From positions 248,001 to 312,000 of the forward strand of contig JABLXX010000003.1 of the NCBI GenBank assembly GCA_013177825.1: DNA of 64,000 nucleotides, given 5' to 3'. The position numbers and the translations under genes are program-made. This DNA is from Syntrophaceae bacterium (GTDB lineage Bacteria; Desulfobacterota; Syntrophia; Syntrophales; PHBD01). The notes under the pieces are model-generated. The model saw only the letters and a program-made list of their open reading frames with translations, did not search any database and was not told where the DNA came from. Of the stretch, positions 31,679-64,000 are shown in pieces. The first letter of the stretch is position 1. Each line of letters opens with the position of its first letter.

Positions 31679-31908
31679 TCCAGACGCAGGCATTCGCCAG
31701 GAGCATTGTGTAACTCAGTTCTACTGTTCCCTTGTGTTTTTCCTTGCTTTGAGCGTCGTGTCACGGGGGCTGTCACGGGGGTTCCCGCCGTCGCGGCCAT
31801 TTTTCCGCAATCCGCCGTTGACGACCACTCAGGCAGGAGGGATGGAAAAATGTCCTAATCGCTCCTCTGGGAACCCCCGGCCGCGCCCCCGCGGATGGCG
31901 GGGAGTGG

Positions 31909-32070
31909 GGCTTCCCGGAGCGCGAATAGAGGCTTTTTCGGGGCACCCTGCCGTCGCAGTGCAGCGCCCGCAAAGTCATCTGTCTGAGCGCCGCCAGGCG
32001 CGAGTTATGACTTTGCAGCGGAGCGAGACGCTGCAGGGTCGAAAAAACTCTTCTGAGCGCGAGGGAAGCC
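31909..32070. repeat. Long imperfect inverted repeat (about 160 bp)
   Basis: Nested complementary pairs run from outside in: GGCTTCCC/GGGAAGCC (31909/32063), TTTTTCG/CGAAAAA (31934/32040), ACCCTGC/GCAGGGT (31945/32033) and GCAAAGTCAT/ATGACTTTGC (31970/32007). A transcript could fold into one long interrupted hairpin. It could be a non-autonomous mobile repeat or a structured RNA. Confidence 0.6.
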
Positions 32071-32130
32071 TCTCTCCAGAGTGACCGACAGAAGGCGATC
32101 CGGCTGGTGGGGGAGAAAAGGAATAAGGAA

Positions 32131-32200: not shown

Positions 32201-33382
32201 TTAGATGCCTGCGTCCTTCTTCAGCTTCTTCGCCAGGTCCGTCTTCTCCCAGCGGTAGTTGTCCATGAACAGGGTCACGGGAATCTTCCGGTAGACGTTC
32301 CCGTTGAGGAGGTCAAAGCGCTCGATCATCCCGGCAGGAGTGAGGTCGAAATTGGCCTCGACGAGTTTTTCCAGTTTCCTGGCCGGAACTTTTCCCGTTC
32401 CGAAGGTGTCGATGTAGATCGAGAAGGGCTTCGCGATGCCGATGGCGTAGGCGAGCTGGACGGAGCACTTCGCGGCCAGTCCGGCGGCTACGATGTTCTT
32501 GGCCACGTAGCGGGCGCCGAATGCGGCGGAGCAATCCACTTTCTCGGGCGACTTGTTCACTACGGAGCCGCCGCCCAGCTGGGCCCCCGGATATCCGCCG
32601 TAGCACTGAACCACGAGCTTGCGGCCCGTCACGCCCGAATCGGCGGCGCTGCAGGAGTTGATCGCCTGCCATTCCCCGGTGGGGTTGAAGAGAAATTCCG
32701 TCTTCTTGTCCACCCAGTCGGCGAGGCATTCGAAGGCGATCTTCTTCGCCCTGGTCTCCACGGCTGATCTCTTCCCCTTCACGAAGCGGTAGTCGATGGC
32801 GTTGGACATCAGGACCTTGGCAAGCCGCTTCGGCTTCCCCGTCTTGTCGTCGTATTCGACGGAGACCTGGCCCTTGCCGTCGGGAGCGAAAATGGGATCG
32901 TTCAGCGCCTCGAAGGTACGCATCATCCGGCTCACCAGGACATAGGGAAGGGGGAGCAGGTCCGGTGTCTCGTCGCAGGCGAAGCCGTACATGATCCCCT
33001 GGTCGCCGGCACCGATTTCCTTGTGTTTACCGAGGTCTCCCCGGGTGCCGATGTTGATGTCCGGAGACTGGGGAATGATGGCGTTCAGGATGCCCATCGA
33101 GTTTCCGTTCAGGCCGACGGCCGCGTCGTTGTATCCCAGGGCCAGGACGGTCTTGCGGACCACCTTATCGATATCGATGTACACGCGGGTGCTTACCTCG
33201 CCCCCGACGACGCAGAGCCCCTTGCCGATAAACACCTCCACCCCGCAGTGAGGCATGGTGTTGATGTCCATCTTCTTTCTCTCGTGTTCCGCGTCCAGGA
33301 TTTCCGCGATGATGTGGGCGGCGATCATGTCCGCAACGATGTCGGGGTGTCCAACCTTGATGCTTTCCGATGAAATCTGCAT
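32201..33382 (-). CDS. metK: Divergent S-adenosylmethionine synthetase
   Basis: MetK makes SAM from ATP and methionine. The 393-residue protein keeps the family frame: SSESIKVGHPD, QSPDIN, GAGDQGIMYGF (signature 1), YVAKNIVAAGLA and IDTFGTG. Several usually invariant positions differ from canonical bacterial MetK as I recall it: HPDK is HPDI, VDTYGG is VQCYGG, GGGAFSGKD (signature 2) is GGGSVVNKS, and KVDRSA is KVDCSA. It may be an active lineage variant or have altered activity. ATG at 33382 follows AGAAAGGAAAG. The leader carries a riboswitch-like structure, which supports a role in SAM homeostasis. Confidence 0.82.
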   Translation of the reverse strand: MQISSESIKVGHPDIVADMIAAHIIAEILDAEHERKKMDINTMPHCGVEVFIGKGLCVVGGEVSTRVYIDIDKVVRKTVLALGYNDAAVGLNGNSMGILNAIIPQSPDINIGTRGDLGKHKEIGAGDQGIMYGFACDETPDLLPLPYVLVSRMMRTFEALNDPIFAPDGKGQVSVEYDDKTGKPKRLAKVLMSNAIDYRFVKGKRSAVETRAKKIAFECLADWVDKKTEFLFNPTGEWQAINSCSAADSGVTGRKLVVQCYGGYPGAQLGGGSVVNKSPEKVDCSAAFGARYVAKNIVAAGLAAKCSVQLAYAIGIAKPFSIYIDTFGTGKVPARKLEKLVEANFDLTPAGMIERFDLLNGNVYRKIPVTLFMDNYRWEKTDLAKKLKKDAGI

Positions 33383-33454
33383 GCTTTCTTTCCTTTCTTC
33401 TGTCAGGTTCCGTAGTTCCCAAACCAATGAGCCCGCGGGGCTTTTGTCCGATGG

Positions 33455-33484
33455 ATAAAAAAACCCGCGCCGGAAGCGCGGGTT
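33455..33484 (-). terminator. Intrinsic terminator/attenuator in the metK leader
   Basis: Minus strand AACCCGCGC-TTCCG-GCGCGGGTT forms a perfect 9-bp stem running into TTTTTTT. It lies about 75 nt upstream of the metK start, inside the transcript leader, where it can only act by premature termination. Confidence 0.8.
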
Positions 33485-33556
33485 GAAACGGACGGATCGG
33501 TTCGGCGCTTTAGCACATTTGTATAGCGGAGCAATTTACCTTTTAAATTCCCGCTG
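33458..33556 (-). promoter_or_regulatory. SAM-II-like riboswitch with terminator, metK leader
   Basis: Read on the minus strand, the metK leader starts with AGCGGG (33555-33550), pairs it with TCCGCT (33530-33525), and encloses a T/A-rich loop with AATTTAAAAGGTAAATTGC. The 3' part, ATACAAATGTGCTAAAGCGC, closely resembles the SAM-II aptamer core (AUAAAUGUAGCUAAA). GGT of the loop can pair with GCC at the 3' end as in the SAM-II pseudoknot. Downstream, AACCCGCGC/GCGCGGGTT plus seven T residues is an intrinsic terminator (33484-33455). The aptamer end GCGCCG (33508-33503) is complementary to CGGCGC in the terminator (33472-33467), giving a possible antiterminator. The second half of the SAM-II pseudoknot is not clear by eye. 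Confidence 0.6.
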
Positions 33557-63509: not shown

Positions 63510-64000
63510 TCAGGGAAGTTTTTCTCCCTCCGAGGCGATGGCCTCCAGGCTTTCCCGGTCGAGAATCGCGATCCGGGCGCCCTGGGTGCGGATCAGGCCC
63601 CGGCGGCTCATTCGCGCCAGGATTCGTGAGAGGGTCTCCGGGATCGTCCCCAGGAGCGCCGCCAGTTGGGCCTTGGAAAGATCCAGTTCGACGGTATCCT
63701 TTGTTTCTCCACCGCTCCGATAGAGCAGGTAGGCCGCCAGCCTCCCGGGGACCTCTTTCAGGGACAGGTCCTCCACCATGCGGGTGAAGCGACGGAGCCG
63801 GACGGACAGAACCGCCAGCATCCCCAGAGCCAGGGACGCATCCCCGCGGATCAGCCCCACAAAGTCCTCCCGGGGGAAGAACAGGAAGGAGCAGGCCCTT
63901 TCCGCTGCGGCATGGGCCGGATATCCCTGGCCGGTAAACACGGCCACCTCTCCGAAAATTTCGCCGGAGCCGAACAGGTGCAGGATCTGCTCCTTGCCTT
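63510..64000 (-). CDS. Crp/Fnr-family regulator, 5' end missing
   Basis: About 163 C-terminal codons of a Crp/Fnr regulator; the start is beyond the right edge. The cyclic-nucleotide-binding fold shows LHLFGSGEIFGEVAVF, the long dimer helix follows, and the winged helix has LSKAQLAALLGTIPETLSRILARMSRRGLI. The usual N-terminal Cys cluster of Fnr cannot be checked. It is followed by hemerythrin and GGDEF genes with short gaps, probably in the same transcript. Confidence 0.87.
   Translation of the reverse strand, partial: GKEQILHLFGSGEIFGEVAVFTGQGYPAHAAAERACSFLFFPREDFVGLIRGDASLALGMLAVLSVRLRRFTRMVEDLSLKEVPGRLAAYLLYRSGGETKDTVELDLSKAQLAALLGTIPETLSRILARMSRRGLIRTQGARIAILDRESLEAIASEGEKLP

Follow-up and report, generated by a model that had tools for sequence, protein, structure and literature searches.

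A divergent MetK subfamily with a retained catalytic set and a putative SAM-II-like leader RNA in Syntrophales

The active sites of MATs are commonly portrayed as almost unchanging from bacteria to eukaryotes. In the 64,000-nucleotide stretch of Syntrophaceae DNA that we analysed (the window), one metK gene departs from this picture at several signature motifs, which raises the question of whether its product is still a SAM synthetase. The original prediction listed HPDI, VQCYGG, GGGSVVNKS and KVDCSA beside a MetK-like GAGDQG, all of which are present in the protein, and proposed either a distinct, still active MetK class that matters for SAM supply or an enzyme with shifted activity. Our analysis favors the first. 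The protein is very probably a working SAM synthetase from a divergent MetK subfamily that has the housekeeping role in this Syntrophales lineage and whose gene would be repressed by SAM through transcription attenuation. The subfamily is almost certainly functional, judging its catalysis from sequence; it would use the standard residues to form SAM from ATP and methionine and to hydrolyse the tripolyphosphate.

The divergent MetK clade

The metK ORF occupies window positions 32204-33382 on the minus strand and its stop codon positions 32201-32203; the gene as a whole (32201-33382, minus) encodes 393 amino acids from an ATG start. A Shine-Dalgarno-like AAGGA, recognized by its sequence, lies about 8 nt 5' of the ATG (33391-33395, minus). 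The protein contains the N, M and C domains of MAT in order (Pfam PF00438, PF02772 and PF02773) and passes TIGR01034, the NCBIfam metK equivalog, narrowly, at 315.5 bits against a cut-off of 309.4. All 38 members of clade set A2 match the same model. The predicted structure aligns best with solved MATs (top TM 0.76). Since the AlphaFold2 model made from the clade alignment (mean pLDDT 67.5) falls below 50 at residues 1-14 and 238-282, the interface active site included, we drew no distances from it. In its three domains, its full catalytic set, its full-length alignment (about 35-37% identity in structure alignments) and its metabolic context, the protein resembles bacterial MetKs such as those of E. 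coli (1RG9, 7LOO) and N. gonorrhoeae (5T8S) and those described by TIGR01034.

Unlike these proteins, the divergent MetKs form a separate, long-branch clade. In a tree that took in MetKs of E. coli, Anoxybacillus, Streptomyces and phage together with canonical Desulfobacterota and canonical Syntrophales MetKs, they make up one group (support 100/100), and its stem measures 2.29 changes per site; because the branches are long, the exact sister of the clade is uncertain. Homologues of 70-96% identity occur throughout the order. A class-level search gave a match in 139 of 155 genomes, sorted by best-match score into about 115 of the divergent type, about 15 with a canonical homologue only (41-45% identity, all in genera g19 and g20) and about 9 with short or unclear matches. 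In a phylum-wide sample of 395 genomes, the divergent type turned up in this order alone, and the other genomes have canonical proteins at 40-47% identity. Likewise, the best 80 loci of a contig search all carry titles of Syntrophales, Syntrophaceae, Smithella, Deltaproteobacteria or unclassified Proteobacteria. Plasmids, phages and viral contigs gave no divergent homologue, the plasmid and phage matches all lying below 60% identity, and a mobile origin of the gene was rejected on this ground. We found no paper on this MetK clade, or on SAM-II in Syntrophales, in the open-access literature.

The host genome, which is listed as 100% complete, gave a single match to the divergent protein, its sole metK, and no match to the archaeal-type MAT family PF01941. 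A second canonical metK or an archaeal MAT in this genome was thus ruled out. Some genomes carry two divergent metK paralogues; in one assembly (PMBI01), one paralogue is riboswitch-led and the other is not (L048 and L090).

Catalytic residues and their neighbours

Eighty-eight distinct divergent homologues, taken from assemblies of Syntrophales and related deltaproteobacteria, were aligned with the MetK of E. coli and with 19 canonical ones of Desulfobacterota. None of the 15 catalytic or ligand residues that we checked has been lost: H14, D16, Q98, D118, D163, K165, D238, R244, K245, K265, K269, D271 and I302 are invariant among the 88 clade members, and E42 and E55 are nearly so (87 of 88). 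The differences from bacterial MetK are similarly fixed. K17 of HPDK is aliphatic (I, V or L) in 86 of the 88 sequences and T in two, and GRF, which adjoins adenine, is GEW (R229E, F230W) in every one. G264N and the change of D266 to S or T are likewise found in 88 of 88, D249Q, C239S and R272C in 87 of 88, and the replacement of S263 by V, M or I, together with S268E, is fixed or nearly fixed across the clade. C239 and S263 presumably lie near the monovalent-cation site, as in the E. coli enzyme. The altered residues are not shared by the 19 canonical Desulfobacterota MetKs, all of which retain K17, D249, C239, G264, D266 and R272.

The divergent clade therefore carries HPD(I/V/L), GGG(A/S)VVNK(S/T), VQ(F/L/C)YGG and GEW in place of the exact motifs HPDK, GGGAFSGKD, VDTYGG and GRF, which are signatures of MetK rather than its catalytic definition. 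The altered positions appear to have been replaced as a set, packed around the standard catalytic residues. The motif changes listed in the original prediction are all borne out, and others that are equally fixed had escaped it, above all GRF to GEW. For an error of sequencing or binning, or for a pseudogene in decay, we found no supporting point: the genus has a 96% identical homologue in a second genome, and the 88 distinct clade members have the same residues in intact frames. The chance of such an artefact is practically nil, and we rejected it; the altered residues are real.

Published structures place E55, Q98, I102, H14, D163, R229, F230 and D238 in contact with SAM (PMC8727953). The main-chain carbonyl of R229 reaches the adenine amino group (N6), and the aromatic ring of F230 stacks on adenine, a role taken by Tyr in archaeal MATs (PMC6850014; PMC3853416). 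Given the main-chain nature of the first contact, the aromatic nature of the second and the archaeal Tyr, R229E and F230W look compatible with binding and function. The archaeal enzymes (PF01941; T. kodakarensis, P. furiosus) belong to a separate family, and they illustrate that MAT chemistry survives large active-site divergence. In human MAT, E42 and R244 form a salt bridge that borders K+, and D249 and T250 fall within the tripolyphosphate recognition loop (human 264-273) (PMC6850014). The earlier assignment of the altered positions to the triphosphate and metal site holds in part. The triphosphate, Mg and methionine contacts of solved MATs (H14, K165, R244, K245, K265, K269, D271, Q98 and E55) are unchanged, and the altered residues are their neighbours or make main-chain (R229) or stacking (F230W) contacts. 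Several points count against our preferred explanation: the narrow TIGR01034 margin, the low confidence of the structure model at the active site and, for the leader (see below), the missed SAM-II gathering score and the missing sigma-70 promoter. Another is that human R249W, at the equivalent of E. coli R229, is pathogenic (PMC6850014), suggesting that canonical enzymes do not vary freely at this site.

The protein might still be a SAM synthetase in which the rebuilt shell (C239S, S263V, R229E, F230W and aliphatic K17) alters cation dependence, nucleotide choice or feedback. The substitutions are co-fixed in 88 sequences and clustered at the GRF, DCGLTGRK-VDTYGG and GGGAFSGKD motifs, and the stem of the clade is long, all of which would fit such a change. 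However, E42 and R244, the pair that borders K+ in the human enzyme, are conserved in the divergent clade, and canonical metK fills the same riboswitch slot in sister genomes (see below); we regard this alternative as doubtful. A shift in the use of substrate or cation is conceivable without being supported, and for the shifted activity of the original prediction we found no positive evidence. A loss of SAM synthesis, with ATP or a methionine analogue put to a different reaction, has nothing to recommend it beyond the altered motif residues themselves. It is very improbable for the sole MAT of any kind in a complete genome, with its full catalytic set retained, a SAM-type riboswitch and a linkage of the family to ahcY.

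The leader RNA upstream of metK

The original prediction also pointed to a riboswitch-like leader, and this leader proved both real and specific. It reads AGCGG GAAUUUAAAAGGUAAAUUGCU CCGCU AUACAAAUGUGCUAAAGCGCC, followed by a strong terminator, and the whole putative SAM-II-like element with its transcription-attenuation platform spans positions 33458-33555 (minus strand, as are all features below). The predicted aptamer occupies 33504-33555 and gives full-length but sub-threshold alignments to Rfam SAM-II (RF01726). Within it we observed the P1 stem (AGCGG/CCGCU, 33555-33551 with 33529-33525), the pseudoknot P2a (GGU/GCC, 33540-33538 with 33506-33504) and, in invariant or nearly invariant columns, a predicted SAM-pocket core (33509-33535) made up of AUUGC (33535-33531) and GCUAAA (33514-33509); the pocket assignment follows PMC6061858. 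The predicted antiterminator helix (33474-33510), supported by covariation, pairs AAGCGC (33510-33505) with GCGCUU (33479-33474), and the intrinsic terminator hairpin, AACCCGCGC...GCGCGGGTT followed by a T run, occupies 33462-33484. An inner stem of L1 (AAUUUA/UAAAUU) was weakly supported and set aside, and no sigma-70 promoter was found upstream.

No Rfam family matches the leader at its gathering score. Anti-hemB and similar weak matches cover the terminator hairpin alone and were dismissed. When the bare aptamer of a relative (L022) was searched, SAM-II was the sole coding-strand match, covering all 60 positions and scoring 18.4 bits, where gathering requires 44; the window aptamer gives 14.0 bits at the equivalent place. 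The leader shares with SAM-II (RF01726, "SAM-II long loop") the P1 stem, a GAUUU third strand, AUUGC and the AAAUG.GCUAAA core in the same order, as well as the pseudoknot and the transcriptional expression platform usual for that class (PMC6061858). It differs in its loop lengths, in the sequence of P2a and in scoring only 14-18 bits against 44. The SAM pocket and pseudoknot core, which are near-identical between SAM-V and SAM-II (PMC6061858), also make it resemble SAM-V; SAM-V, however, is translational and marine, whereas this leader has a terminator and an antiterminator, and Rfam SAM-V does not match it. SAM/SAH, SAM-III and SAM-Chlorobi elements likewise lie before metK and control it, but they belong to other folds or families, without a gathering match here (RF01727 gives low-scoring, chance-level matches). 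In the pocket shared by SAM-V and SAM-II, the SAM adenine pairs with U47, its sulfonium faces U20:A48 with U9, and its amino-acid end is bound by A50 (PMC6061858). AUUGC and GCUAAA would correspond to A18-U19-U20-G21 and C46-U47-A48-A49-A50 of SAM-V. On these features, we assign the leader as a putative SAM-II-like riboswitch that stays below the reporting threshold of Rfam. The SAM-II targets reported in alphaproteobacteria are metA, metX, metY and metZ, not metK (PMC4239095, PMC9373788), and Syntrophales are missing from the SAM-II references in Proteobacteria and from the 2010 motif survey.

P2a corresponds to alignment columns 19-21 with 54-56, and it covaries, with counts at one pair of GC 21, AU 13, GU 6 and UA 1. 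The antiterminator joins columns 50-55, in the aptamer 3' strand, to columns 92-97, in the terminator 5' arm; it is 96% paired and has double changes at three pairs, and it counts AU 26, GC 17 at one pair. For both helices the observed covariation score was reached by 0 of 500 shuffles, and sliding the helix partner abolished it. Leaders of canonical metK and other genes, which were held out of the helix inference, also favored their own partners over shuffled ones (0 of 500), among them second copies of the element in which AAACAG meets CUGUUU. Because columns 54-55 are common to P2a and the antiterminator, these two are mutually exclusive, as are the antiterminator and the terminator. This is the mutually exclusive, covarying arrangement of a transcription-attenuating riboswitch. 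At one related locus (L020, 2743-2945), two successive aptamer-terminator units precede a single divergent metK, the second of them degenerate and with its own matching antiterminator.

In the mechanism that we propose, transcription of metK would start upstream of the aptamer. When SAM is scarce, the aptamer 3' strand AAAGC(G/A)C would pair with the terminator 5' arm, forming the antiterminator and allowing metK to be transcribed; when SAM is plentiful, the pseudoknot would capture this strand, the terminator would form and metK would be turned down. We infer both SAM as the ligand and the direction of control, such that the leader would be an OFF switch in which SAM stabilizes the pseudoknot. 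Termination has been predicted for a SAM-II riboswitch before, at Sinorhizobium metZ (PMC9373788).

Genes associated with the element

A covariance model of the element gave hits in 84 of the 154 genomes of the class; across the sampled phylum, the hits were confined to this order. In about 15 Syntrophales genomes that have no divergent gene, it lies directly upstream of canonical metK (for example G028-G034, G039-G042, G046, G048 and G051). G036 and G037 have both metK types, with the element before the canonical one. In G038 (contig C165, L194), a tandem pair of elements precedes mtnA and then canonical metK, an arrangement that links methionine salvage to the same control. Since canonical and divergent metK occupy the same riboswitch slot in sister genomes, their cellular roles look interchangeable.

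The element was found at 77 divergent metK loci, none with a neighbouring ahcY, although 38 of the 77 end too soon for certainty. At the 40 divergent loci without it, ahcY (SAH hydrolase, identity confirmed by TIGR00936) is directly downstream in 38, and in 34 of the 40 there is also an upstream gene that we take to be DUF502-like. The collections overlap, so these loci are not independent genomes. Neither the loci of the ahcY type nor the canonical metK genes of the other Desulfobacterota tested showed the element. Whether with the element or with ahcY, divergent metK sits in SAM metabolism. The original proposal of a distinct MetK class that is still active and matters for SAM supply is well supported by sequence comparison: the gene is the sole metK, its clade is monophyletic with the catalytic set kept, its putative riboswitch is common to sister canonical metK, and the family forms an ahcY operon elsewhere.

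The leader might have the SAM-II/SAM-V fold and yet respond to another physiological ligand, such as a related nucleoside. It misses the Rfam SAM-II threshold, some copies precede small orphan genes without a Pfam match, and a report on spermidine riboswitches indicates that SAM aptamer variants can switch ligand (PMC10853860). However, the pocket nucleotides AUUGC and GCUAAA are conserved, and the element precedes two kinds of metK as well as mtnA-metK, which makes a ligand other than SAM quite improbable. A bolder reading joins enzyme and RNA. The protein would be a functionally distinct MAT class with a rebuilt cation- and adenine-side shell (C239S, S263V, R229E, F230W), for example K+-independent or adjusted to the low ATP of energy-limited syntrophs, and the leader a riboswitch class of its own, so far undescribed, within the SAM-II/SAM-V superfamily, kept while the enzyme beneath it was swapped. 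We consider this unlikely, and prefer an active SAM synthetase under a SAM-II-like riboswitch.

Several other observations were made. At six loci (L181, L182, L184, L185, L186 and L188), copies of the element, often in tandem, precede small orphan ORFs of about 110-200 amino acids with a common start like VVIRI(E/D)TIEKKYPGG; the one tested, from L186, had no Pfam match. Near the copy at L182 (G054:C2, near 475000-476000), frames that repeat FNPRARAGRD resemble a CRISPR array in translation. In the window, a highly structured element of about 200 nt (31880-32080; fold z-score -4.67) lies 3' of metK, before an aminotransferase gene. It has about 27 copies in this genome (89-100% identity), occurs in 36 of 154 class genomes, often several times in each (about 71-88% identity outside the genus), and has no Rfam match (E up to 0.5); it may be a repeat of the MITE kind or an unnamed multi-copy RNA. 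ARAGORN also places a tRNA-Met at 63576-63664, which Rfam does not report at gathering.

A natural clade with the MetK catalytic set and much of the shell replaced would show which of the "signature" residues are dispensable, and the divergent MetKs would offer new enzymes for SAM-analogue chemistry. The leader would extend SAM-II-type control to metK, in an order where the Rfam model misses it. The occurrence of canonical and divergent metK in one putatively riboswitch-controlled slot would be a clear case of enzyme replacement under a conserved RNA regulator.
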